The position numbers and the translations under genes are program-made. From Herbaspirillum sp. DW155 (lineage in GTDB: Bacteria > Pseudomonadota > Gammaproteobacteria > Burkholderiales > Burkholderiaceae_D): a DNA stretch of 64,000 nt. The DNA is taken from NCBI RefSeq assembly GCF_037076565.1, contig NZ_AP029028.1, positions 5,084,001-5,148,000 on the forward strand, given 5' to 3'. Of the stretch, positions 18,775 to 31,400 are shown piece after piece (position 1 is the stretch's first letter; each line of letters starts with the position of its first letter). The notes beneath the pieces are model-generated. The model was not told the DNA's origin. It searched no databases and saw only the letters and a program-made list of their open reading frames with translations.

Positions 18775-20034
18775 ATGAGCCAAGTCCTGAACTACCTGAT
18801 CACCGCCCGCCGCTGCGAAGTGGAAGAACTGCAACGCCTGGCACGCACCTGCCAGCTGGTCCTGACAGTAGGCAAGCTGATCCACTGCCTGCAGCAGGAG
18901 CGCGGCATTTCCAACATCTACCTCGGCTCGCGCGGCGAGCGCGACGGGCAGGTATGGCAGGAGCGCGTGGCCGCCAGCCAGGCGGCACAGCGCCAGTTCG
19001 AGGCCTGGCTGGAATCGACCGAACACGACAACGCCCTCTCCAACGGTGCGCGCCTGTACACCCGTATCGCCTTCGCCCTGCATGCCCTCGATGGCATGCC
19101 CAGGCTGCGCGCCGACGTGGCCGCGCTGGCCTGCACGCCGGCGGCCAGCTACGAGCGCTTCAAGACCGTGGTGGGAGCGCTGCTGGCGCTGGTGTTCGAA
19201 GCCGCCGACGTGGCGGTCGATCCGCAGATCTCGCGCCTGCTGGTGGCGCTGTTCAACCTCATGCAGGGCAAGGAATTCGCCGGCCGCGAACGTGCCTCCG
19301 GCGCCGCTGCCTTTGCCATGGGCAAGATCACGCGCGAGCAGGAGCAAGCCATCGAGACCCAGATCGAGATGCAGGAGCAGGCCCTGCGCCGCTTCGAATC
19401 CTTCGCCGAGGGCTTCCGCAACGAATGGAGCGCCATGCAGGCGACCCTGCCCCTGGCCGATCTGGAAAGGCTGCGCCGCAAGCTGCTCACCGCTCACGAC
19501 CGGCCACTGGCGACCGACCTGGCCGATGCCTGGTATCAATGCTGCTCCACCCGCATCGATGGTCTGCATCAGGTCGAGATCCATCTGGCGCAATACGTGC
19601 AGTCGCAATGCCGGGAGAAGATCGTCGAATTGCAGAAGGAACTGGACGACCAGGGCCAGCTCTTCAGCCAGGCCGATGCACTGGACCCGCTGGCCCCGCT
19701 GGCGGCGTTCTCTTCCAGCCTGGAAGGCCAGACCCTGCCGGAGGAATCGCTGCGCGCAGGCGTGGGTCCGCACCTGACGCAATCCATCGTCGAGATCCTG
19801 CGCAGCCAGTCCGAACGCCTGCAAAACCTGACCCAGGAACTGGCCACCGTGCGCGAGAGCCTGGAAGAACGCAAGCTCATCGAGCGCGCCAAGGGCGTGC
19901 TGATGATGAAGCAGGGACTCAACGAAGAAGCCGCCTATCGCCTGCTGCGCAAGCATGCGATGAACCAGAACCGGCGCATTGCCGAGGTGGCCCAGGCGAT
20001 CCTGTCGCTGACCGAAATCCTGCCGGACGCCTGA
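18775..20034 (+). CDS. nasR: NIT-ANTAR nitrate-responsive antitermination regulator (NasR-like)
   Basis: 419 residues. The N-terminal all-helical NIT domain (about 30-290, with LIHCLQQERGISNIYLGSRG) is the nitrate/nitrite sensor type. The C-terminus (about 345-405) is an ANTAR RNA-binding domain (LIERAKGVLMMKQGLNEEAA followed by HAMNQNRRIAEVA). NasR binds leader RNA hairpins and prevents termination of nitrate-assimilation mRNAs when nitrate is bound. No nitrate reductase gene is in the window; its neighbour is the guanidine operon, so it may be a separate transcription unit that happens to adjoin, or a nitrogen-control partner. Confidence 0.85.
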   Translation: MSQVLNYLITARRCEVEELQRLARTCQLVLTVGKLIHCLQQERGISNIYLGSRGERDGQVWQERVAASQAAQRQFEAWLESTEHDNALSNGARLYTRIAFALHALDGMPRLRADVAALACTPAASYERFKTVVGALLALVFEAADVAVDPQISRLLVALFNLMQGKEFAGRERASGAAAFAMGKITREQEQAIETQIEMQEQALRRFESFAEGFRNEWSAMQATLPLADLERLRRKLLTAHDRPLATDLADAWYQCCSTRIDGLHQVEIHLAQYVQSQCREKIVELQKELDDQGQLFSQADALDPLAPLAAFSSSLEGQTLPEESLRAGVGPHLTQSIVEILRSQSERLQNLTQELATVRESLEERKLIERAKGVLMMKQGLNEEAAYRLLRKHAMNQNRRIAEVAQAILSLTEILPDA

Positions 20035-20050: not shown

Positions 20051-21466
20051 TCAGGCCGCCAGCAAGCGCCCTTCGATCTGGCGCTGTCCGACCAGCGGCT
20101 GTCCGTGTGCGCGCTGCAAGGCATCGGCCACGCCCAGCAGGGCCTGGTCGCTGAAGGCCGGGCCGAACACGGTGATCCCCCAGGGCAGGCCATTCTTCAT
20201 GAAGTTCATGGGTGTGGCCACGGCAGCGTAATCCAGCATGTTCATGAAATTGGTGTACCAGCCCAGGTCCGAATTGCGCTGTACCGGCTGCTCGCGCAAT
20301 TCTTCCAGCGTCACCGGACGCGGGTAGGCCGGCGTCACCACGCAATCGACGGTGGCCAGGATGCGGTCGCATTCGACCTTCAGTTGCTGCAGGCGATATT
20401 GCGCGCGGAAGGTATCCACGGCGCTGTACTCGGGCGCCTTGCGCAGCACGTCGCGGATCACCGGCAAGACGGCCTCGGGCCGTTCCTGCAACAAGGTTTC
20501 GATGATGCTGTAACGCTCGGCCACCCATGGTCCCTCGTAGAGCAGGCGCGCAGCCTCCAGGAAGGGCGTGAAATCGATGGGCACGGCCACGCCGCCGATG
20601 GCTTCCATCTGCGCCAGCGCCTCCACGAACAGGGCCGGGCTTTCGCTGCAGCCGAGGAATTCCAGCTGACGCGGCACGCCGAAACGCAGTCCCTGGCGCG
20701 GCGGCCGGAACGCCGAGGCGTCGTTGTGCGGCAGGTTGGCACGGCTGTATTCGTCGCGCTCATCGGACTGCCCGGACTGCGTACACAAGGCCAGCAAGTG
20801 GCTGGCTTCGGCCGCCGTGGCGGTGAAGAAGGTGACGCAATCCAGCGTGCGGCAAGCGGGCACCACCCCGGCGGTGGACAGCAAACCCTTGGTCGCCTTG
20901 AGCCCGACCAGGTTGTTCAGTGCCGCCGGGACGCGACCACTGCCGGCAGTGTCGGTACCCAGCGCAAAACTGGACAGGCCCAGCGCCACCGCCAGCGCCG
21001 AACCGGAGGAGGAGCCGCCGGAGGGATAGTCCGGATGCACGCTGTTGCGGCAGGCGCCATAAGGCGAGCGCGTGCCGTTCAGACCGGTGGCGAACTGGTC
21101 CAGGTTGCACTTGCCGATGGGGATGGCGCCCAGCCCGATCAGTTGCGCCACCAGCGTGGCGCTTTCGCGCGGCACATGGCTGAAGGCCGGACAGCCGGCC
21201 GTGGTCGGGATGCCGGCCAGGTCGATGTTGTCCTTGATCGAGAAGGGCAGGCCATACAGCGGCAGGCTGTGCGGCGATTGCCGTTCCAGCGCCTGCAGAT
21301 AGGGCTCGGTTTCTGCCTCGCTCAGCAGGTGGATGTAGAGCCGGTATTGCGGATTGAGTTTCTCTGCGGTTTCACGCAGGCGCCTGATCACCGTACGCGG
21401 GTCCAGCGTGCCCGCGCGATAGGCGGCGGTGAGCGCATCGATGCGCAGGTCAAAGGAATGGATCAT
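20051..21466 (-). CDS. atzF: Allophanate hydrolase, amidase domain only
   Basis: 471 residues of amidase-signature fold. The Ser-cisSer-Lys triad is visible: Lys in FSIKDNIDLAG, cis-Ser in SGGSSSGSALAVA and nucleophile Ser in GTDTAGSGRVPA. It converts allophanate to ammonia and CO2, the last step of guanidine degradation. Characterised AtzF-type enzymes are about 600 residues with a C-terminal domain that acts on the first decarboxylation/hydrolysis intermediate; here the protein ends after the amidase domain. The start (ATG 21466) overlaps the carboxylase stop by 4 bp, and AGGAGG precedes it. Confidence 0.88.
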   Translation of the reverse strand: MIHSFDLRIDALTAAYRAGTLDPRTVIRRLRETAEKLNPQYRLYIHLLSEAETEPYLQALERQSPHSLPLYGLPFSIKDNIDLAGIPTTAGCPAFSHVPRESATLVAQLIGLGAIPIGKCNLDQFATGLNGTRSPYGACRNSVHPDYPSGGSSSGSALAVALGLSSFALGTDTAGSGRVPAALNNLVGLKATKGLLSTAGVVPACRTLDCVTFFTATAAEASHLLALCTQSGQSDERDEYSRANLPHNDASAFRPPRQGLRFGVPRQLEFLGCSESPALFVEALAQMEAIGGVAVPIDFTPFLEAARLLYEGPWVAERYSIIETLLQERPEAVLPVIRDVLRKAPEYSAVDTFRAQYRLQQLKVECDRILATVDCVVTPAYPRPVTLEELREQPVQRNSDLGWYTNFMNMLDYAAVATPMNFMKNGLPWGITVFGPAFSDQALLGVADALQRAHGQPLVGQRQIEGRLLAA

Positions 21467-24400
21467 GCGGCCTCCTGTGGGGTCTGTTCCATCACCAGCA
21501 CGCACTGGCCTGCACGCACCGGGCTGCCGGGCTGCACGCGTACTTCGGCGACGATGCCGGCCTCGGGCGCGGCAATGTTGATTTCCATCTTCATCGATTC
21601 CAGGATCATCAGCAGTTCACCCTGTGCCACACGCTGGCCCGGACTCACCTTGACCTGCCAGAGATTGCCGGCAATGGGCGCATCGACGGCCACTTGCCCT
21701 GCCTGCAGCGGCTGATCCTCTTGTACGACGGCACTGCTTTCCTCGCTCTCGAAGTCGGCCTGGCCGCTGGCGATCCAGCGCTGGCGCTCGGCATCGAAGG
21801 CCGCCTGCTGGTGCTGGCGGAAGGCGGCGATGCCCTCGGCTTCGCGCTGCAGGAAATCCTGGTACTGCGCCAGATCGAGGCGGGTCTCTTCGATACCGAT
21901 CTCGAAACGGCCCAGCGGAAAATCGCGGCGAATGGTCTGCAATTCCTCGGCGCTGACCGGATAGAAACGGATCTGGTCGAAGAAACGCAGCAGCCAGGGC
22001 TTGCCGTGGAAGGCCGCGACCTCGCGATAGCGGTTCCACATCTGCAGGGTGCGTCCGACGAACTGGTAACCGCCCGGCCCTTCCATGCCGTAGATGCACA
22101 GGTAGGCGCCACCGATGCCTACCGAGTTCTCGGCGGTCCAGGTGCGCGCCGGGTTGTACTTGGTGGTGACCAGGCGATGGCGCGGGTCCAGCGGGGTAGC
22201 CACCGGCGCGCCCAGATAGACGTCGCCCAGTCCCATGACCAGATAGCTGGCATCGAAGACGGTCTCGCGCACGGCACCGATATCCCGGAGATCGTTGATG
22301 CGACGGATGAATTCGAGATTGCTGGGACACCACGGCGCATCCTTGCGCACCGTGGTCATGTATTTCTCGATGGCGAGCTGGCAGGCCGGATCATCCCAGG
22401 ACAAGGGCAGATGCACGATACGCGACGAAACCGTCAGGTTTTCGCGGGCGCAGACGGCATCCCACAAACCGCTGATGGTCTGCAGCAGGGTGCTCAGGGG
22501 CAGAGCCTCCGGCTGGTAATGCACCTGTAGCGAGCGGATGCCGGGGGTGAGATCGATCACGCCGGGCAGGGCCTGTTCTTCCAGCGCCGCAATCAGCGCA
22601 TGCACGCGGAAGCGCAGCACCAGGTCGAGCTGCGGGCTGCCCACTTCCAGCAGCAGATTGGCATCACCCGACAGGCGCGCTACCAGGCGCCGTTCATCCT
22701 GTCCCAGGTCCAGCACGATGGGCGAGGTCAGAGCAGCGGGCGTCCATGTCACCGGTTGCGGCTGCAGGCTGGCGACAGCGGCGTGGGCGGCCAGCGCGAT
22801 ACGACGCGCCGTGGCCACGTCCACCGGGACGAAGCGCAGCCTGTCGCCGGCCTTGAGCTGGCCGATCTGCCAGAGATCGGCCTCGATCACCGTCACCGGG
22901 CAGACGAACCCGCCCAGACTGGGACCATCCGGCCCCAGGATCACGGGCATGTCACCGGTGAAGTCGACCGCACCCACGGCATAGGGATTGTCATGAATGT
23001 TGGAGGGATGCAGGCCGGCCTCGCCGCCGCTGTCGCGCACCCACTCCGGCTTGGGACCGATCAGGCGTACGCCGGTGCGGCTGGAATTGAAATGGACTTC
23101 CCAGTCGGTCGCAAAAAAAGTCTCCATGTAAGCCGGTGTGAAATATTCCGGCGCGCCATGCGGACCGTAGATCACACGGACCTGCCGGACCGTCTCCAGT
23201 GCGGGATACAGGCCGTCCGGCAGGGTCTGCCCGGCTGCCGCCGCGTCGCCATCGGCCAGCGGCAGCAGGTGCAGGACGTCACCACTGGCCAGCGCACGCC
23301 CGGCGTGACCACCGAACTGCCCCAGCGTGAAGGTACTGCGGCTGCCCAGATAAGCCGGCACCTGCACACCACCACGCACAGCCAGATAACTGCGGGCACC
23401 GGCAGCGCTGATGGTGCCGAGCCTGAGGGTGCTGCCGGCGGCCACCTGCAGTACGGTCGCCATCGGCTGCGCCACGCCATCGAGCAGCACCGGGATCGCC
23501 GCCCCGGTGACCACCACCATGGCCGCCGTGTTGAAGCGCAGGACCGGCCCGCTCATGGTCACTTCCAGCGCGGCCGCATCCTCGGCATTGCCCAGCAGGC
23601 GGTTGCCCAGGCGCAGCGCGCGCTCATCCATCGGTCCCGAAGGCGGTACGCCGACAGCCCAGTAGCCGATGCGACCGGGATGGTCCTGCACCGTGGTCTG
23701 GGTGCCGGGTGAGAGCACTTCCACCGTGTCGGCGCGATAGACCAGTTGTTCCAGGCAGCGTGTCCACGGCTGGCCGCTGGCAAACGGCACATCGGCCAGA
23801 ATCTGGCGCAGGTAGTGCTGGTTGGTTTCCACGCCATACAGCCGGGTCTCGCGCAAGGCGGTGTCCAGCGCCAGACGCGCTTCTTCACGGGTGGGCTGCC
23901 AGCTGATGAGCTTGGCGATCATGGGATCGAAATACGGCGGGATCTCACATCCGGCCTCGACCCAGGTATCGATGCGCAGTGCCTGGCCATCGGCGGGTGG
24001 AAACTCGACCGCTGTCAGCAGGCCGGGACAGGGCTGGAACTGGCGGCCCGGATCTTCCGCGTAAAGACGCGCCTGGATCGCATGGCCGCGCGGCTGCAAG
24101 GTGGCTGCCAGTTGTGCCAGCGGCGGCAGCTCGCCGGCGGCCAGCTCGATCATCCAGCGCACCAGATCGACACCCCAGACCTGTTCGGTGACGCCATGCT
24201 CCACCTGCAGGCGCGTGTTGACTTCCAGGAAGTAGAACTGCCCGGCCTGACTGTCATAGACGAACTCCACCGTGCCCGCACTGCGGTAGTTCACGGCCCG
24301 CGCCAGCTTGATGGCAGCGGCACACAGGGCCTCGGCCATGCCCTCGGGCAGGTTGGGGGCCGGGGTTTCTTCCAGCACCTTCTGGTTGCGCCGCTGCACC

Positions 24401-25086
24401 GAGCAGTCACGCACGCCCAGGGCGATCACCTCACCCTGCCCATCGCCGAAGACCTGCACTTCCAGATGGCGGGCACGTTCGATGTATTTTTCGATGAAGA
24501 CGCCGGCATCGCTGAAATTGTTCTGGCCCAACCGGCGCACGGAATCAAAGGCATCGGCCAGTTCGGCATCGCTGCGGCAGACGCGCATGCCGATGCCACC
24601 ACCACCGGCAGTGCTCTTCAACATTACCGGATAGCCCACGCGGGCGGCGGCCGCCAGGGCATCGTCGGCCGTCTCCAGCAGGTCCGTACCTTCCAGCATC
24701 GGTACGCCCTGCTCGCGCGCCAGTGCGCGTGCCGTGTGCTTCAGGCCGAAGATGCGCAACTGTGCGGGGGTGGGTCCGACGAAGGCGATGCCGGCCGCTT
24801 CGCAGGCTTCGGCAAAGCCGGCATTCTCGGACAGGAAGCCATAGCCCGGATGGATGGCCTGGGCGCCGCTGTCGCGGGCGGCCGCCAGGATCTTGTCCAC
24901 GGCGAGATAGGTCTGGGTGGCCGGACCTTCGCCCAGCGAGATGGCGCGGTCGGCCTGCAGCACGTGCAGGCTGCCGAGATCGGCTTCGGAATAGACGCAC
25001 ACGCCGGTCACGTCCAGCGTGCGCAGGGTGCGCAGGATGCGGCAGGCAATGGCGCCGCGGTTGGCGATGAGCAGATGGTCAAACAT
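21463..25086 (-). CDS. Biotin-dependent carboxylase of the urea carboxylase family, most likely guanidine carboxylase
   Basis: 1207 residues in the family order: biotin carboxylase ATP-grasp domain (about 1-450, with MLKSTAGGGGIGMR), KipA/AHS2-like and KipI/AHS1-like carboxyltransferase domains (about 470-1010), and a C-terminal biotinyl domain with ILESMKMEINI (Lys biotinylated, about 1160). It carboxylates its amide-type substrate using ATP and bicarbonate. Automated annotation would say urea carboxylase. Because the operon is led by a guanidine-I riboswitch and contains both DUF1989 subunits, guanidine is the likely physiological substrate, giving carboxyguanidine. Confidence 0.88.
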   Translation of the reverse strand: MFDHLLIANRGAIACRILRTLRTLDVTGVCVYSEADLGSLHVLQADRAISLGEGPATQTYLAVDKILAAARDSGAQAIHPGYGFLSENAGFAEACEAAGIAFVGPTPAQLRIFGLKHTARALAREQGVPMLEGTDLLETADDALAAAARVGYPVMLKSTAGGGGIGMRVCRSDAELADAFDSVRRLGQNNFSDAGVFIEKYIERARHLEVQVFGDGQGEVIALGVRDCSVQRRNQKVLEETPAPNLPEGMAEALCAAAIKLARAVNYRSAGTVEFVYDSQAGQFYFLEVNTRLQVEHGVTEQVWGVDLVRWMIELAAGELPPLAQLAATLQPRGHAIQARLYAEDPGRQFQPCPGLLTAVEFPPADGQALRIDTWVEAGCEIPPYFDPMIAKLISWQPTREEARLALDTALRETRLYGVETNQHYLRQILADVPFASGQPWTRCLEQLVYRADTVEVLSPGTQTTVQDHPGRIGYWAVGVPPSGPMDERALRLGNRLLGNAEDAAALEVTMSGPVLRFNTAAMVVVTGAAIPVLLDGVAQPMATVLQVAAGSTLRLGTISAAGARSYLAVRGGVQVPAYLGSRSTFTLGQFGGHAGRALASGDVLHLLPLADGDAAAAGQTLPDGLYPALETVRQVRVIYGPHGAPEYFTPAYMETFFATDWEVHFNSSRTGVRLIGPKPEWVRDSGGEAGLHPSNIHDNPYAVGAVDFTGDMPVILGPDGPSLGGFVCPVTVIEADLWQIGQLKAGDRLRFVPVDVATARRIALAAHAAVASLQPQPVTWTPAALTSPIVLDLGQDERRLVARLSGDANLLLEVGSPQLDLVLRFRVHALIAALEEQALPGVIDLTPGIRSLQVHYQPEALPLSTLLQTISGLWDAVCARENLTVSSRIVHLPLSWDDPACQLAIEKYMTTVRKDAPWCPSNLEFIRRINDLRDIGAVRETVFDASYLVMGLGDVYLGAPVATPLDPRHRLVTTKYNPARTWTAENSVGIGGAYLCIYGMEGPGGYQFVGRTLQMWNRYREVAAFHGKPWLLRFFDQIRFYPVSAEELQTIRRDFPLGRFEIGIEETRLDLAQYQDFLQREAEGIAAFRQHQQAAFDAERQRWIASGQADFESEESSAVVQEDQPLQAGQVAVDAPIAGNLWQVKVSPGQRVAQGELLMILESMKMEINIAAPEAGIVAEVRVQPGSPVRAGQCVLVMEQTPQEAA

Positions 25087-25184
25087 TCAGGTGGCCTTGA
25101 AATCCGGGTCGTCCCGTGATTCGGAAAACCGGCTCGCGGTCGTCCGCGAGAGGTGCAGGGCAGCGTGCGCGCATGCGACAGGTA

Positions 25185-25820
25185 TCAGTCCCAGACCAGC
25201 ACTTCGGCTGCAGTCGGGTTCCAGCCATTGCAGGGGTTGTTCAACTGCGGGCAATTGGAAATAAGCACGATCAGGTCCTGCTCGGCGCGCAGCTCCACGT
25301 ACTTGCCGGGCGCGGAGATGCCATCCTCGAAGGTGAGGCCGCCTTCCGGCGTGACCGGCACGTTCATGAAGAAGTTGATGTTGGCGCCGATGTCGCGTTT
25401 GTTGAGGCGTCCGTCGTGCAGGCAGGCGCACAGGAAATTGTCGCGGCAGCTGTGCATGTAGCGCTTCTCCAGCGCATAGCGCACGGTATTGCTCTCCTGC
25501 GCGCAGGCGCCACCCAGGGTGTCATGGCGGCCGCAGGTATCGGCCACGATGGTGGCCAGGGCACGCCCCAGGTTGGAATAGAGCACGCTGCCCGCGCCCA
25601 GGTAGGCGCGGTTCTGGCGGCGCAGCGTGCGCTGGGGATCGTAGCGTTCGCGCGGATTGGTGCTGCTGTAGAACAGGGTGTCGATGGCCTGGTTGCCTTC
25701 CAGATCCAGCAGCCGCACGGTCTGGCCGGCGCGGACGTTGAAGAGATAAGGTTCGCCGGCCGGGATCACGTGACGGAACACGGCTTGCTCGGGGACGCGC
25801 TGGCTTTCGATGATGTGCAT
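25185..25820 (-). CDS. cgdB: Carboxyguanidine deiminase subunit, DUF1989 (urea amidolyase-associated protein 2 type)
   Basis: 211 residues, a DUF1989 protein. It shows the family's cysteine-rich metal-site-like stretch around TCGRHDTLGGACAQE and MHSCRDNFLCACL and the central FMNVPVTPEGGLTFEDGIS. Established work on riboswitch-linked clusters assigns the DUF1989 pair as a heteromeric carboxyguanidine deiminase that releases ammonia and yields allophanate. It follows its partner gene closely and is followed after 98 bp by the carboxylase. The A/B designation is by gene order and size only. Confidence 0.82.
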   Translation of the reverse strand: MHIIESQRVPEQAVFRHVIPAGEPYLFNVRAGQTVRLLDLEGNQAIDTLFYSSTNPRERYDPQRTLRRQNRAYLGAGSVLYSNLGRALATIVADTCGRHDTLGGACAQESNTVRYALEKRYMHSCRDNFLCACLHDGRLNKRDIGANINFFMNVPVTPEGGLTFEDGISAPGKYVELRAEQDLIVLISNCPQLNNPCNGWNPTAAEVLVWD

Positions 25821-25835
25821 GTGATTCTCCCTGGC

Positions 25836-26567
25836 TCAGAGATGGAAGCGTTCGGTGTTGTGGAAGGCGCGCTCGTTCTCGGGGCGCGAATGGCGGCAGG
25901 CATGCGTGCTGTCGTCGCTGTGCGTGTGCAGCCATTCCAGCCGGACCGGGCGCGGCGCGTAGTGCGGATGCGGGTCCATGGGATGCTGCAAGGCCGTCAG
26001 GATCATGAGCGTATCCATCGGTGCGGCCAGCTCGATGAAGTCACCGGCCCTGGAATTGCCGGGCACGAAGTGGAACACGCCCTCGGCATCCACGCTCACG
26101 CGCGAGAACAGGTTCACCACCATCAGCAGGTCTTGCAGGTCGAGGTTCCACTTGCCCATTTCCACCAGCAGGTTGTCGGCGCCGTTGCGATAGAAGCCGT
26201 TGCGCAGTTCCTGATAGCGGCCCTGGCCGTATTTCTCGCGCACCTCTTCGGCATTGAGCACGCCGCCGAAGCTGTCATGCCAGCCGCAGGTATCTTCGGT
26301 GATGGCCGCGAGCACGCGCCCCATGTCGGAGTACAGGCAATGGCCGGCCTGCAGGCGCGCGGTGTGCTGGCCCTTCAGCGTATCGGGCAGGTTCAGCCGT
26401 TCGCTGGGCTGCTGGGCGTTCAACATCATCATGCTGACGTTGGCGCCGCCTTCGATGTCGGTGATGCGCAGCGACTGGCCGCGCTTGAGGATGAAAGAGG
26501 TATGGCCGCCACCGGGCAGCACTTCTTCGTAGAGTCTGGCTTGCAGGGCCAGGGGATCCTTGCTCAT
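25836..26567 (-). CDS. cgdA: Carboxyguanidine deiminase subunit, DUF1989 (urea amidolyase-associated protein 1 type)
   Basis: 243 residues, the longer DUF1989 partner. It has the parallel motifs GGGHTSFILKRGQSLRITD, LYSDMGRVLAAITEDTCGWH and NLFSRVSVDAEGVFHFVPG. The start is ATG 26567, 1 base after the ATPase stop; the in-frame upstream region overlaps that gene and is not needed. It is expected to form the deiminase complex with the following subunit in the cytosol. Confidence 0.82.
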   Translation of the reverse strand: MSKDPLALQARLYEEVLPGGGHTSFILKRGQSLRITDIEGGANVSMMMLNAQQPSERLNLPDTLKGQHTARLQAGHCLYSDMGRVLAAITEDTCGWHDSFGGVLNAEEVREKYGQGRYQELRNGFYRNGADNLLVEMGKWNLDLQDLLMVVNLFSRVSVDAEGVFHFVPGNSRAGDFIELAAPMDTLMILTALQHPMDPHPHYAPRPVRLEWLHTHSDDSTHACRHSRPENERAFHNTERFHL

Positions 26568-26568
26568 G

Positions 26569-27341
<773 letters not shown>

Positions 27342-27345
<4 letters not shown>

Positions 27346-28157
27346 GCGCGGCCTCCTTCAGCCCAGGGGAAGAAGCGCCGGTGCACGGCACGCAGCAGCC
27401 AGTCCATCAGCCAGGCCAGCAGCGTGATCCAGACCACATAGGGCAGGATGATGTCCATGGCCAGGTAACGACGCACGAGGAAGATGCGATAGCCGAGACC
27501 GGCCGTCGCCGAAATCGCCTCGGCGGAAATCAGGAACAGCCAGGCCGCGCCCAGCGACAGCCGCAGCGAGACCAAGAGACGCGCCAGCATCTGCGGCAAG
27601 GCCACGCGCACGACCAAGGTCCAGCTGTTGGCCCCGAGCGTCTGCGCCTTGATCAGCAGTTCGGCGGGAATGGCGCGGCCGGTATGTTCGAGGTCGCGCG
27701 CCAGCAGCGGCGTAACGCCGATGACGATCAGCATCACCTTGGACAATTCATCCAGCCCCATGACGATGAAGAGAATCGGCAGGATCGCCAGCGGCGGCAC
27801 CATCGAAATCACCGTCAGCAGCGGCGAGAAGCCGGCGCGCAGAACCGGGAAGATGCCATTGGCAATGCCCAGCACCAACCCGGCCACGGCGGCGATGCCC
27901 AGGCCCAGCAGCACCCGCTGCAGGCTGGCCAGGGTGTCGCTCCAGAACAGATAGTCGCCGGTGCGCGGATCTTCCATGAAGGCCATGTGGCGGATCGCAT
28001 CGACCATCTGCCCCAGGCTGGGCAGCAGCTTGTCGTTGGGATTGTCGGCCAGGCGCGTAGCCGAACCGAAGGCGTAGAGCAGCGCCAGGATGAGGAAGGG
28101 CAAGAGCGTGAGCAGCCATTGCCCGGAGCGGTCGGGATGGCGATTCAGGAAACGCAT
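27342..28157 (-). CDS. ABC transporter permease, probable guanidine uptake
   Basis: 271 residues with about six membrane segments and the NitT/TauT-class permease loop (AELLIKAQTLGANSWTLVVR). The start is ATG 28157, preceded by AGGGAGG; the longer open frame reaching 28280 runs into the leader between riboswitch and gene and is rejected. It is the first gene of the leftward guanidine operon. Its periplasmic binding protein is encoded on the other side of the divergent promoter region. Confidence 0.9.
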
Positions 28158-28292
28158 GATGCGCCTCCCTGCGACAGGGATGGAGGCAGCGCAGAGGCTG
28201 CCAGAGGGGAGCTGGGGATGCGAACAGCGATCACGATGGACTCCGGTCGGGGTTGAACAAAAGCAGGAGCAGCGCGGCACCTGTGGTGCAAC

Positions 28293-28390
28293 TCTCTCCC
28301 GGGCTTTTGTCCCGCCGTGTAACCTCGACCGAGGTCGCCGGCTCTCGGACCAGTCATCTGCCTGCGGCAGACCGGAACCCTAGCCAGCTA
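28293..28390 (-). promoter_or_regulatory. Guanidine-I (ykkC) riboswitch controlling the leftward operon
   Basis: Minus-strand leader with the conserved ykkC blocks in order: CTAGGGTTCCGG, ACTGGTCCGAGAG, then ACACGGCGGGACAAAAGCCC and GGGAGA. Variable arms lie between them. It lies about 135 bp before the permease start. Downstream, AAAAGC..GGAG can pair with CTCC..GCTTTT followed by GTT, a plausible competing terminator, so ligand binding would permit readthrough. The conserved blocks match the second copy at 29085-29172. Confidence 0.92.
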
Positions 28391-28471
28391 TTTGGACTAC
28401 TTGTGCAGCCGTTGGACGATCAACTCATCTCAGATCATCGGTGCGGACTGCTCTGCATTGATGTGGATTTC

Positions 28472-28487
28472 AGCAAATTCCATACCA
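28472..28487 (-). promoter_or_regulatory. Sigma-54 (-24/-12) promoter of the leftward guanidine operon
   Basis: On the minus strand TGGTATGGAATTTGCT keeps the invariant GG and GC with exactly 10 bases between them, as in the consensus TGGCACG-N4-TTGCW. It would start transcription about 70 nt before the riboswitch. The matching site on the opposite strand (29010-29025) is closer to consensus and supports this one. Confidence 0.6.
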
Positions 28488-28643
28488 TCACCGCCGGCGC
28501 CGCAGCCACTGCACGGCGTGCGCCAGGGCCTCGATGAGCAGCAATGAAGTGCGCATCCGGCCACACAGCGGCAACGCTTGCGTGGCCTCGGTGGAAAAGG
28601 CGATGGGAAAAACGGCGGCACTGCTTGAGCGGGTCGTGGGCAT
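28488..28643 (-). CDS. Possible 51-residue small protein between the divergent guanidine promoters
   Basis: The ATG at 28643 has GCAGGAG 8-9 bases upstream. The 51 codons have strongly GC-biased third positions, as in the surrounding real genes, and stop at TGA 28488-28490, touching the sigma-54 promoter. The peptide is Ser/Thr/Ala-rich at the start, has a hydrophobic helix (RTSLLLIEALAHAVQWL) and ends in four Arg. The family is unknown. It may be a genuine small gene or a chance frame in the enhancer region. Confidence 0.35.
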   Translation of the reverse strand: MPTTRSSSAAVFPIAFSTEATQALPLCGRMRTSLLLIEALAHAVQWLRRRR

Positions 28644-29009
28644 GGTCTACTCCTGCGAACATGGCCTGGCCGTCCAGGATGGTTGTCGAAGCCTGCGCGA
28701 ATGCCAGTGCTCCAATCCAAGTCGTCTTGGCTCGCCCTATGCGAGAACGACGATCTTGTATGCAAGTTCCGGGCCAAGCTTTGCACGATCGGGACGGACG
28801 GCGCAAAGCCGCTCCTGTGCTGGCTTCCGACGGAACAGCCCGACCGCCGCAGCGCGCGCCAGCGCAAGCATGGTGCACGCCGGCACCGATTTGGCGCGCG
28901 GCGGCTGCGCCATCGGCGCGCATTCCGACCCGCGCGCTAGTCCTTCTGGCCGGTGCCCTATTAATAGCGAAAACGCGGTTCAGGCATCGTTCAGGCATCG
29001 CCATCGGAT
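28644..29009. other. Divergent control region between the two guanidine units
   Basis: No convincing gene; open frames exist on both strands because of high GC but none has a ribosome site with a recognisable product. As it separates two sigma-54-type promoters, it is where an enhancer-binding protein such as NtrC would act. An inverted repeat GGTGC-acgccg-GCACC is at 28872-28887; its arms are NtrC-like but in the opposite order. Confidence 0.35.
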
Positions 29010-29025
29010 TGGCACGAACCTTGCT
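29010..29025 (+). promoter_or_regulatory. Sigma-54 (-24/-12) promoter of the rightward guanidine unit
   Basis: TGGCACGAACCTTGCT is a full match to the consensus TGGCACG-N4-TTGCW. It lies 60 bp before the riboswitch at 29085, placing the transcript start near 29037. It implies control by a sigma-54 activator, most simply the nitrogen regulator NtrC. Confidence 0.85.
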
Positions 29026-29084
29026 GAAAAGCGAGCGGGAGCCGGCGAGTCCGGTCTTGAGTCAGCACAATTTGCAATGGACAG

Positions 29085-29172
29085 CTAGGGTTCCGGTTCG
29101 CTGGTGCGGATGTCTGGTCCGAGAGCAGTCGACCTCGCAAGAGGTTACACGGCGGGAGAAAAGCCCGGGAGA
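29085..29172 (+). promoter_or_regulatory. Guanidine-I (ykkC) riboswitch controlling the binding-protein gene
   Basis: Plus-strand leader with CTAGGGTTCCGG (29085), TCTGGTCCGAGAG (29112), and ACACGGCGGGAGAAAAGCCC ending in GGGAGA at 29172. The last block also forms the 5' half of a terminator, so the switch is transcriptional: guanidine binding sequesters GCCCGGGAG and lets polymerase continue into the gene at 29240. Confidence 0.95.
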
Positions 29173-29212
29173 TGACGCGATCGCAAGAGCGCGCCGCTCC
29201 CGGGCTTTTTTC
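29162..29212 (+). terminator. Riboswitch-controlled intrinsic terminator
   Basis: AGCCCGGGAG (29162-29171) pairs perfectly with CTCCCGGGCT (29197-29206), followed by a T-run. The 5' strand is shared with the riboswitch core, giving mutually exclusive structures. Confidence 0.92.
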
Positions 29213-29239
29213 CAATAAACCCTTCGAGGACCCTACGCC

Positions 29240-30316
29240 GTGTACAACATTTCCCGAATCCTTGGTGGCGCTGCCATCGCCCTGGCCGCCTTCGCTGGCG
29301 CGCTCTCATCCGCCCACGCCGCCCCCCGCACCGATTTCAAGGTCTGTACTTCCATCTATGCCGGCTGGATGCCCTGGGGCGAAGCCCAGGCACAAGGCAT
29401 CCTGGCCAAGTGGGGCAAGAAGTACGGCATCACCATCAGTGCCGTGCAGTTGAACGACTACGTGGAATCGATCAACCAGTACACCGCCGGCAAGTTCGAC
29501 GGCTGCACCATGACCAACATGGATGCGCTCACCATTCCCGCAGCCGGTGGCGTGGACTCCACCGCCCTGATCGTGGGCGACTATTCCAACGGCAACGACG
29601 GCATCGTGCTGAAGGGGAAGAACAAGAAGCTGACCGACATCAAGGGCCAGTCGGTGCAGCTGGTGGAATTCTCGGTCTCGCATTACCTGCTGGCGCGGGC
29701 ACTGGAAACGGCCGGCCTGCGCGAGCGTGACGTCAAGGTGGTCAACACCAGCGACGCCGACATCACCGCCGCCTTCGCCACCCCCGCTGTCACCAGCACG
29801 GTGACCTGGAACCCGATGCTGTCCTCGATTGCCGCATCGCCCGATGTCTCGCTGGTCTACACCTCCAGGCAGCTGCCCGGTGAAATCATGGACCTGATGG
29901 TCGTCAATACCAAGACCCTGCAGGAGAACCCTGCCTTGGGCAAGGCACTCACCGGCGCCTGGTACGAAATGATGTCCATCATGACCGCCAAGGATGAGCG
30001 TGCCACCCGCGCGCTGACCGCCATGGGCAAGGCCTCCGGCACCGACCTGGCGGGCTTCCAGTCGCAGCTCGCGGCCACGGCCATGTTCTACCAGCCCAAG
30101 GCGGCGCTGGAGTTCGCCACCAAGAAGGAACTGCCCGGCATCATGGGCCGTATCGCCAAGTTCAGCTTTGACCACGGCATCCTCGGCCCCAACGTCAAGA
30201 GCGCCGATGGCATCGGCATCGCCTTCGATGGCAACGTGGTGATCGGCGACAAGAAGAACGTCAAGCTGCGCTTCGATCCGACCTACATGAAGATGGCGGC
30301 CGACGGAAAACTTTAA
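29240..30316 (+). CDS. Periplasmic ABC substrate-binding protein, probable guanidine-binding
   Basis: 358 residues with GTG start (GAGGACCCTACGCC upstream) and a Sec signal peptide (about 1-29, ending AHA). The mature protein has the NitT/TauT binding-protein pattern (VCTSIYAGWMPWGEAQAQGI, then YVESINQYTAGKFDGCTMTN). It has its own riboswitch and promoter, separate from the permease/ATPase unit, which would allow the high copy number binding proteins need. Ligand assignment to guanidine comes from the riboswitch, not from motifs. Confidence 0.88.
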   Translation: MYNISRILGGAAIALAAFAGALSSAHAAPRTDFKVCTSIYAGWMPWGEAQAQGILAKWGKKYGITISAVQLNDYVESINQYTAGKFDGCTMTNMDALTIPAAGGVDSTALIVGDYSNGNDGIVLKGKNKKLTDIKGQSVQLVEFSVSHYLLARALETAGLRERDVKVVNTSDADITAAFATPAVTSTVTWNPMLSSIAASPDVSLVYTSRQLPGEIMDLMVVNTKTLQENPALGKALTGAWYEMMSIMTAKDERATRALTAMGKASGTDLAGFQSQLAATAMFYQPKAALEFATKKELPGIMGRIAKFSFDHGILGPNVKSADGIGIAFDGNVVIGDKKNVKLRFDPTYMKMAADGKL

Positions 30317-30452: not shown

Positions 30453-31400
30453 TTGACTACCTACACCACTTCCCTGTCGCGCCTGCACAGCCGCTCTGTC
30501 CTCGGCACCTGTGCCGCTGCGCTCGCCGCCCTGCTGGCCTGCGCACCGGCACTGGCCGACGATGCCGCTCCGGCTGCCACCGCAGAGCCCGCCGGCCCCT
30601 GGACCATCACCAAGCACATCGACCTGGCCTCGCGCTACGTGCTGCGCGGTGTCACCACCACCTACGGCAATGGCCAGCCGCTGGGCAATGCCGGTGCCGA
30701 TGCGCCTGAGTCTGACCAGGCTGCGCTGCAATGGGGCATCGATTTCGTCCACACCAGCGGCTGGAGCTTTGGCTACTGGGCGTCCACCATCAACTATTCG
30801 TACAAGCAGCTGGGCAATTCCTACAGTGACCGCAGCATCACCGAATTCCAGAAACCGCGCTCGGTCGAAAACGATCTCTACTTCGCCTACGCCGGCAACA
30901 TCACCGGCGACCTCGGCTATACCCTGGGCATGACCGGCTACTACTATGCCAACGGCAGCCATGCCAATGCCTTCGAAACCAAGGCCGGACTGACCTGGGG
31001 CGCGCTGTCCCTGAACGCGCAGACGCTGCTCAACGATGTGGTCTGGGGCAACAAGGGCGACACCTACTGGACCCTGGCCTACACCAGGCCGCTGCCTTAC
31101 GACATCACCTTCACCAGTACGCTGGGCGCCTACACCTATCACCGCGAAGGCAAGTACCTCGGCACCCGCGATACCGCCACCGGCACGGCCTGCGGCGCCG
31201 GGCAGGCGTTCGTGGTCAATGGCTGCTTCGCCGGCAACGGCCCCAGCAGCGGCGGCCTGCGCCACCTGACGCTGGGCCTGTCGGCGCCGTTCCCGAATTC
31301 GTCCATCACCTGGTCGCTGCAGGCCATCCTGGGCGGTTACAACCGCTTTGATATCAAGCAGGGCAACCAGCTGGTGGGGATGTTGAGTCTGGGCTTCTGA
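30453..31400 (+). CDS. TorF-family putative outer-membrane porin
   Basis: 315 residues. It has a signal peptide (about 1-36, ending ALA) and alternating amphipathic beta strands with many aromatic residues (IDLASRYVLRGVTTTYGNG, WSFGYWASTINYSY). It ends in Phe, the outer-membrane barrel signature. It is a TorF/Gcw_chp type barrel. It follows the guanidine-binding protein by 136 bp without an obvious terminator, so it is probably co-transcribed and may let guanidine cross the outer membrane. Confidence 0.78.
   Translation: MTTYTTSLSRLHSRSVLGTCAAALAALLACAPALADDAAPAATAEPAGPWTITKHIDLASRYVLRGVTTTYGNGQPLGNAGADAPESDQAALQWGIDFVHTSGWSFGYWASTINYSYKQLGNSYSDRSITEFQKPRSVENDLYFAYAGNITGDLGYTLGMTGYYYANGSHANAFETKAGLTWGALSLNAQTLLNDVVWGNKGDTYWTLAYTRPLPYDITFTSTLGAYTYHREGKYLGTRDTATGTACGAGQAFVVNGCFAGNGPSSGGLRHLTLGLSAPFPNSSITWSLQAILGGYNRFDIKQGNQLVGMLSLGF

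Follow-up and report, generated by a model that had tools for sequence, protein, structure and literature searches.

A probable guanidine-assimilation locus in Herbaspirillum sp. DW155 with two divergent guanidine-I riboswitches, an internal guanidine-II riboswitch and a candidate guanidine-II-like leader

A stretch of 64,000 nucleotides from Herbaspirillum sp. DW155 (contig NZ_AP029028.1, positions 5,084,001 to 5,148,000; hereafter the window, whose own numbering is used throughout) was analysed around a pair of divergent guanidine-I (Gd-I, ykkC) riboswitches that lie between the genes of one ATP-binding cassette (ABC) importer. The features of the locus are collected in Table 1. Leftward, the gene order is permease, ATPase, UAAP1, UAAP2, carboxylase and allophanate hydrolase, in an operon whose genes overlap or almost touch with the exception of UAAP2 and the carboxylase, which are 98 bp apart; rightward, the gene of the substrate-binding protein is followed by that of a TorF-like porin. 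The initial annotation had placed both Gd-I riboswitches in one control region, which is correct as far as it goes but understates the arrangement, since a third putative transcript with a leader resembling guanidine-II (Gd-II, mini-ykkC) starts between them and a further Gd-II lies inside the leftward operon. We consider it probable that this is a guanidine-assimilation locus in which three transcripts, each led by a guanidine-sensing RNA and one of them carrying the internal Gd-II, are started by sigma-54 and released by guanidine.

Table 1. Features of the guanidine locus, in window positions; promoter sites, terminators and the leader of the small open reading frame (ORF) are predictions. 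SD, Shine-Dalgarno sequence.
Feature	Positions	Strand	Evidence or remark
Allophanate hydrolase, amidase domain only	20051..21505	-	TIGR02713, 563 bits
Guanidine carboxylase (model name urea carboxylase)	21463..25086	-	TIGR02712, 1863 bits
Gd-II (mini-ykkC) inside the operon	25104..25151	-	RF01068, 35.6 bits, cut-off 32
UAAP2	25185..25820	-	TIGR03424, 316 bits
UAAP1	25836..26588	-	TIGR03425, 319 bits; start codon not settled
ABC ATPase	26569..27345	-	PF00005
ABC permease (TauC/NtrB type)	27342..28157	-	PF00528; all NCBIfam matches below cut-off
Predicted terminator, leftward Gd-I	28255..28308	-	fold -22.7 kcal/mol; overlaps aptamer 3' strand
Gd-I aptamer, leader of permease operon	28294..28394	-	RF00442, 96.7 bits, cut-off 63
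Sigma-54-like site TGGTATGGAATTTGCT before permease operon	28472..28487	-	2 mismatches
Small ORF, 51 amino acids, unannotated	28488..28643	-	SD AGGAG at 28650-28654
Gd-II-like leader, twin ACGR hairpins	28665..28730	-	CCAAG-ACGA-CTTGG, 38-nt linker, CCTGG-ACGG-CCAGG
5' hairpin CTCGC-loop-GCGAG	28731..28745	-	abuts first ACGR hairpin; stem invariant, loop variable (alignment, pair count)
Sigma-54-like site TGGCCCGGAACTTGCA before small ORF	28761..28776	-	only 1-mismatch match in the window
Two putative NtrC-like sites, 21 bp apart	28862-28876, 28883-28897		conserved but weak
Sigma-54-like site TGGCACGAACCTTGCT before binding-protein transcript	29010..29025	+	only 0-mismatch match in the window; one of 14 genome-wide
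Gd-I aptamer, leader of binding-protein gene	29074..29173	+	RF00442, 90.3 bits, cut-off 63
Predicted strong terminator, rightward Gd-I	29160..29213	+	fold -32.7 kcal/mol, U6; overlaps aptamer 3' strand
Importer substrate-binding protein, GTG start	29240..30316	+	TIGR03427, 535 bits, cut-off 334

The conserved ykkC blocks on both strands had been read initially as two Gd-I riboswitches about 690 bp apart, with the minus-strand copy leading the permease, ATPase and enzyme operon and the plus-strand copy the binding protein, and a search with the Rfam covariance model had been proposed as a check. Using Rfam release 15 at gathering thresholds (63 for RF00442), both copies scored above the threshold and both matches covered the full model (1-107), so that these are real Gd-I elements; their distance is 679 bp, their targets are those proposed, and a scan of the entire 5.47 Mb genome returned this pair only. 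The 3' strand of each aptamer is shared with a competing stem. On the rightward side this stem takes up the AAAGCCCGGGAG strand and is followed by the U tract, while the leftward stem is bulged, weaker and followed by UUUUGUU, a contrast that the initial annotation had already drawn. Both stems are conserved in the alignment of the window with eight relatives of its type (hereafter the nine loci), and their predicted stabilities fit the suggestion that the two leaders differ in output. A simple terminator scan, which allowed loops of 3-8 nt and no bulges, called neither, and this counts against their action as terminators.

Two alternative readings of the leftward leader were considered and set aside. 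An alternative permease start at GTG 28280 is open in the window, but the nine-locus alignment diverges from about 28220 to ATG 28157, and ATG 28157 was therefore preferred. An upstream ORF of 29 amino acids (28158-28234, minus strand), between the leftward Gd-I and the permease, starts at GTG 28234 after GGAG, overlaps the permease start and is open in the nine loci; its changes by codon position (70/99/121, equal-length pairs) are unlike those expected of coding selection, and coding is not claimed.

Among 34 genomes of the genus, the window's included, Gd-I was found in 13, and in nine of the 34 a divergent pair separates permease and binding protein with gaps of 668-714 bp, which supports the initial claim that one ABC importer is split between two divergent Gd-I transcripts. 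The pair and the internal Gd-II occur together in the window and in each of the eight relatives that share its type. Genome G030 carries two other divergent Gd-I pairs, which set a permease and ATPase against a binding protein (28-34% identical to the queries). A wider comparison used 80 named loci, the best 80 of 540 UAAP2 relatives, in which Gd-I was called with a model built from 20 Gd-I sequences, the window's two among them. Gd-I was present in 78 of these loci, twin ACGR hairpins before the carboxylase in 48 and both in 46, so that the stack of Gd-I and Gd-II is common; 12 had more than one Gd-I. A divergent pair within 1.5 kb was found in three of the 80, namely two Gluconobacter loci, with the carboxylase on one side and UAAP1, UAAP2 and hydrolase on the other, and Herbaspirillum sp. 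ASV7 (L115), the best named match of the window UAAP2 (99% identity), which is very likely the same genome as G024 and was not counted as independent. In a sample of the order, Gd-I occurred in 50 of 399 genomes and divergent pairs within 1.5 kb in five of these 50 (G000, G361, G518, G547 and G577, the window's included); in G518 and G547 a binding protein stands on either side of the pair, and in G577 a binding protein stands opposite UAAP1, UAAP2 and carboxylase. From the named-locus and order counts the divergent pair is uncommon but recurrent, so that the initial description of the split as unusual is borne out only in part.

Other arrangements were seen in the same samples. In G361 (L246) the divergent Gd-I pair is flanked by two different carboxylase genes, whose identities to that of the window are 53% and 56%. 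In six Pseudomonas loci (L121, L123, L133, L136, L147 and L148) one strand carries two or three Gd-I, and a Gd-I leads each of the two binding-protein genes; in L121 and L123 a separate Gd-I leads the permease as well. In the single-Gd-I operons of L131, L191 and G018 the binding protein comes first behind the Gd-I.

The genome G018 has one Gd-I that leads, on a single strand, binding protein, permease, ATPase, UAAP1, UAAP2, Gd-II, carboxylase and hydrolase, and this looks like the older state. The window aptamers are 79% identical to each other, and the plus and minus copies are 83% and 73% identical, respectively, to that of G018, as against 47-63% to the other 17 Gd-I of the 20-sequence alignment. 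Because of these identities and the single operon of G018, it is probable that the split occurred within the genus and that the aptamer was duplicated in the process. It is quite possible, although we lean away from it, that this was a neutral rearrangement in which an ancestral operon of the G018 kind was broken and its aptamer duplicated, leaving transcripts that respond alike and no gain in control; the closeness of the window aptamers to each other and to a G018 copy that likewise leads the binding protein, together with the one operon retained in G018, speaks for such a history. However, the two terminators differ and each is conserved across nine genomes, and splits recur in distantly related loci, both of which suggest, without proving, that the arrangement has some value. 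A neutral origin would in any case be compatible with most of the reading favoured here, that of a guanidine-released assimilation locus.

The internal Gd-II, with two ACGR stem-loops ahead of the start codon, sits in the gap between UAAP2 and carboxylase, 17 nt before the carboxylase start, and is the only RF01068 match in the genome up to an E value of 1. Its second stem has four pairs and it was therefore missed by a strict scan for twin ACGR hairpins with stems of at least 5 bp. In the named loci (1.56 Mb) this strict scan gave 46 twins, of which 44 (44/80 loci) lie between UAAP2 and carboxylase; the count of 48/80 above is from a looser search within 120 bp before the carboxylase.

In the window, the only match of the strict scan was the Gd-II-like leader of the small ORF. 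Published descriptions of Gd-II give two ACGR loops, an SD downstream, a G-C closing pair as the floor of the pocket, and a variable spacer, in the great majority of at least 13 nt (PMC5486947, PMC9300104). In the window leader both ACGR tetraloops are closed by G-C, and the second hairpin ends 10 nt before the SD of the ORF. Over ten loci, the nine and G018, the hairpins are constant with the exception of the outermost pair of the second hairpin in G018, and the linker length ranges from 31 to 48 nt. Twin hairpins appeared in none of 20,000 first-order Markov versions of the gap, and of the twins in the named loci just two lay outside the carboxylase gap, the present element in L115 and one in Pseudomonas profundi (L138). 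A pattern search found the leader in nine of 294 family genomes, all of this genus, which are G018 and eight of the nine genomes with the small ORF; the ninth, G027, stands outside the 294-genome sample and also carries it.

The small ORF lies within one of the invariant blocks of the nine-locus gap alignment and is present in nine of the 34 genus genomes, the same nine that have the divergent Gd-I pair. Its frame has the same aligned end in all nine loci (the aligned frame was used, as a shortest-start rule chose another in some loci), its length in relatives is 50-61 amino acids, and changes by codon position were 57/35/115 in equal-length pairs. In a collection of 5.8 billion proteins it occurs in two clusters, one of which is the window protein itself, and the three members scanned against Pfam families up to an E value of 10 gave no match.

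A switch acting on translation can be drawn for this leader. The 5' arm of the second hairpin (UCCUG) could pair with the SD (CAGGA), presumably to the exclusion of the hairpin, and in G018 the corresponding arm ACUCU can, by our reading of the sequence, pair with the SD GGAGU through one G-U. Constrained folds gave -43.4 kcal/mol with both hairpins and -41.7 kcal/mol with the SD paired, two modelled states that seem close enough for switching; the free optimum, at -45.4 kcal/mol, loses the first hairpin. An upstream pairing GUCGU/ACGAC, which removes the first hairpin in five folded relatives, was also considered as the off-state and was not adopted, as it depends on an unmapped start site.

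Several results weigh against reading this leader as a Gd-II. The Rfam search returned no RF01068 match to it up to an E value of 10. In its first stem (P1, AG-ACGA-CU) an A-U pair lies under the closing pair, with G-C in the second (P2, GG-ACGG-CC), whereas in 44/44 carboxylase-gap twins both stems have G-C there. No covariation was found in the element, as 14 of its 15 pairs never vary. The lowest-energy folds of relatives lost the first ACGR hairpin in 5/5 and the second in 3/5; that of the G018 leader lost the second, and the folded stretch of L030 lost the first. The window leader kept both hairpins when cut at 28735 or 28750 and lost the first from 28760 on, and its fold z-score was -1.5.

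Thus it could be envisaged that only the three riboswitches called by Rfam are real, and that the twin hairpins are DNA operators or promoter-proximal palindromes before a small ORF that is protein-regulated or unregulated. Both hairpin stems are indeed palindromic as DNA, upstream of them there is another palindrome, CTTGCATGCAAG (CTTGTATGCAAG in the window), and the missing covariation, the negative Rfam search and the loss of the first hairpin in the folds of relatives would agree with such operators. On the other hand, both loops read ACGR on the coding strand in 10/10 loci with the position of the second hairpin before the SD kept, the same element in G018 stands ahead of a different gene that has an SD of its own, and elsewhere in the named loci twin ACGR hairpins are a mark of Gd-II; the two stems, being different in sequence, are also not one operator. 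We therefore regard the operator explanation as unlikely. As a separate observation, the block at 28733-28777 that holds the further palindrome is strongly conserved and overlaps the small-ORF promoter, and might be a protein site.

Another lead towards leaders of this kind, and a lead only, is the P. profundi locus (L138, 3788-7461), where a twin ACGR leader with a 60-nt linker diverges from a Gd-I operon. It has a sub-threshold RF01068 match (22.7 bits, Rfam) with one hairpin paired differently, and its strand carries a dioxygenase-like gene (so labelled from a reading of its N-terminal sequence; it had no NCBIfam match) and, farther along, the TIGR03427 binding protein, because of which the importer may be split in L138 too.

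The leader in G018 (L038:10009-12150, plus strand) faces away from the single Gd-I operon and precedes a gene with its own SD for a protein of 322 amino acids, which had no Pfam or NCBIfam match, followed by a biotin synthase gene (bioB; TIGR00433, 396 bits). G018 has two bioB copies over the cut-off, the leader-linked copy and another elsewhere (69% identical); a single copy was counted in the window genome, in G012 and in G031, and no copy in the incomplete G023. Four of the 34 genomes of the genus, every one of them with Gd-I, encode homologues of the 322-residue protein, of which two share no more than 26-27% identity with it; the G023 homologue is at the edge of a contig, and no bioB is visible next to it. 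Biotin is the cofactor of the carboxylase, and a guanidine-controlled transcript would fit the presence of a second biotin synthase next to a guanidine carboxylase that depends on biotin. We put forward tentatively, and at little short of an even chance, that an uncatalogued long-linker variant of Gd-II controls the orphan protein of 51 amino acids and, in a sister lineage, a gene of no recognised family with a dedicated second bioB, so that guanidine would raise the supply of the carboxylase cofactor; together with two Gd-I, the internal Gd-II and three sigma-54 promoters this would make a gate that opens on nitrogen limitation and guanidine both, built from four switches of two classes for one ligand.

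Candidate promoters were sought with patterns that we take to be the sigma-54 consensus, TGGCACG-N4-TTGCW with its GG/GC core, and the NtrC consensus. The window sites agree with the sigma-54 pattern at 13 (binding protein), 12 (small ORF) and 11 (permease) of 13 positions, and sites stand ahead of all three leaders in 9/9 loci, at 12-13, 10-12 and 11-12 of 13 in the same order. Elsewhere in the window no site reaches 12 of 13, three reach at least 11 and 29 at least 10, and genome-wide TGGCAYG-N4-TTGCW occurs 14 times against once for the reversed pattern. Weighing against these sites, the window holds 17 matches to TGGCACG-N4-TTGCW with up to two mismatches, where 17.3 are expected, and the small-ORF site is only 10/13 in three relatives, a level met 29 times elsewhere in the window. 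The NtrC-like pair is likewise weak, as the window has 7 such matches with up to one mismatch and 88 with up to two. It may thus be argued that the sigma-54-like sites are chance matches and ordinary promoters are used without nitrogen control, as the chance-level count, a permease-side site at 11/13 (a level met three times elsewhere in the window) and the presence of the H. seropedicae Gd-I copies among 117 RNAs reported as expressed in one or more of three media, of which two contained ammonium and the third nitrate (PMC7011215), would allow; however, the perfect and the one-mismatch site of the window both fall in the gap between the Gd-I copies, the motif exceeds its reversed control 14 to 1 and lies on the correct side of each leader in 9/9 loci, and no sigma-70-like site was found in 28000-29400 (a weak point, with 0.2 expected by chance), so that this is the least likely of the three alternatives.

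In the favoured reading, that of a locus started by sigma-54 and released by guanidine, nitrogen limitation would start the three transcripts through the sigma-54-like promoters, with NtrC as a possible activator. Guanidine would then act as an antiterminator at the rightward Gd-I, releasing the binding-protein gene, and at the leftward Gd-I with its weaker terminator, releasing permease, ATPase, UAAP1 and UAAP2, while at the internal Gd-II it would open translation of the carboxylase. Since the biotin enzyme stands behind the leftward Gd-I and then the internal Gd-II, it would be gated twice by the same ligand. At the Gd-II-like leader guanidine would hold the ACGR hairpins as a kissing complex, which would keep the UCCUG arm off the SD and so open translation of the small protein. 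If all three transcripts start at sigma-54-like promoters, nitrogen limitation would therefore permit transcription, and guanidine its completion and translation.

Asp708 of the carboxylase aligns with Asn737 of Kluyveromyces lactis urea carboxylase (chain 3va7), presumably the published specificity position N1330. UAAP1 and UAAP2 are, we assume, the two subunits of carboxyguanidine deiminase. An Asp instead of the active-site Asn of urea carboxylases is given as the mark of guanidine carboxylases in the accessible text of PMC12186494, and because Asp708 follows this rule the enzyme was taken as a guanidine carboxylase.

Parts of this arrangement have been described before. In the guanidine carboxylase operon of Vreelandella boliviensis, both Gd-I and Gd-II bind guanidine by in-line probing, and the Gd-II also binds methylguanidine; as in the window, Gd-I lies in the 5' leader and Gd-II before the carboxylase, there between cgdB and gca, whereas the portion of that report available to us describes one operon and shows no divergent Gd-I pair, Gd-II-like leader with small ORF or sigma-54 promoter (PMC12508155). 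In H. seropedicae SmR1, Hsnc110 and Hsnc116 are RF00442 copies before the adjacent genes HSERO_RS22365 and RS22370 (99.0 and 93.4 bits), and from their sizes (101 and 100 nt) and position they are very likely the same Gd-I pair, published in 2020; in the accessible sections of that paper the pair is only listed, the genes are called lipid kinases, and Gd-II, small ORF and promoter are unmentioned (PMC7011215). The Gd-II-like leader resembles the Gd-II of E. coli sugE in its ACGA in P1, ACGG in P2, G-C closing pair and downstream SD (PMC5486947, PMC9300104, as excerpted); compared with typical Gd-II in those excerpts it differs in its 31-48 nt linker, the A-U second pair of P1, the lack of an Rfam call and its place before an orphan small ORF or a gene pair containing bioB. 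Two classes reading one ligand for transcription and translation of one message recall the SAM-II/SAM-V tandem, which sits in one leader in the available descriptions (PMC9481103, PMC11508383), whereas here four genes lie between the switches, which are distributed over three predicted transcripts. As far as its accessible text shows, the 2022 survey of tandem riboswitches contains no tandem arrangement with any guanidine class (PMC9481103). Gd-I, Gd-II, the guanidine carboxylase cluster and the Gd-I/Gd-II stack are thus ordinary, and the importer split over divergent Gd-I transcripts is less ordinary. A literature search, mostly without subscription papers and with the small ORF not searched by name, found no report of the Gd-II-like leader, the small ORF, the leader-linked second bioB or the sigma-54 sites, and we make no claim of priority.

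One ligand would thus be read at several points: when the binding-protein gene is transcribed, when the transporter-enzyme operon is transcribed, when the carboxylase is translated and probably also when the small protein is translated. The locus offers a natural test of why sensors are stacked, be it for separate thresholds, as a guard against partial induction, or for matching a costly biotin enzyme and its cofactor to the substrate. Should the Gd-II-like leader respond to guanidine, catalogues built on covariance models miss long-linker Gd-II, and hidden guanidine genes, here an orphan small protein and a second biotin synthase, would become testable.

The flanks of the locus hold some further features. 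The allophanate hydrolase, at 483 amino acids, is without the C-terminal domain; the models, 563 and 600 long, match it up to about 418 and 455. The gene of the TorF-like outer-membrane protein (30453-31400) comes after that of the binding protein, and because homologues accompany several guanidine clusters in other genera, inside or next to them, it may be the outer-membrane route. Convergent with the end of the carboxylase operon, a gene at 18775-20034 encodes NIT (nitrate/nitrite sensing) and ANTAR domains.

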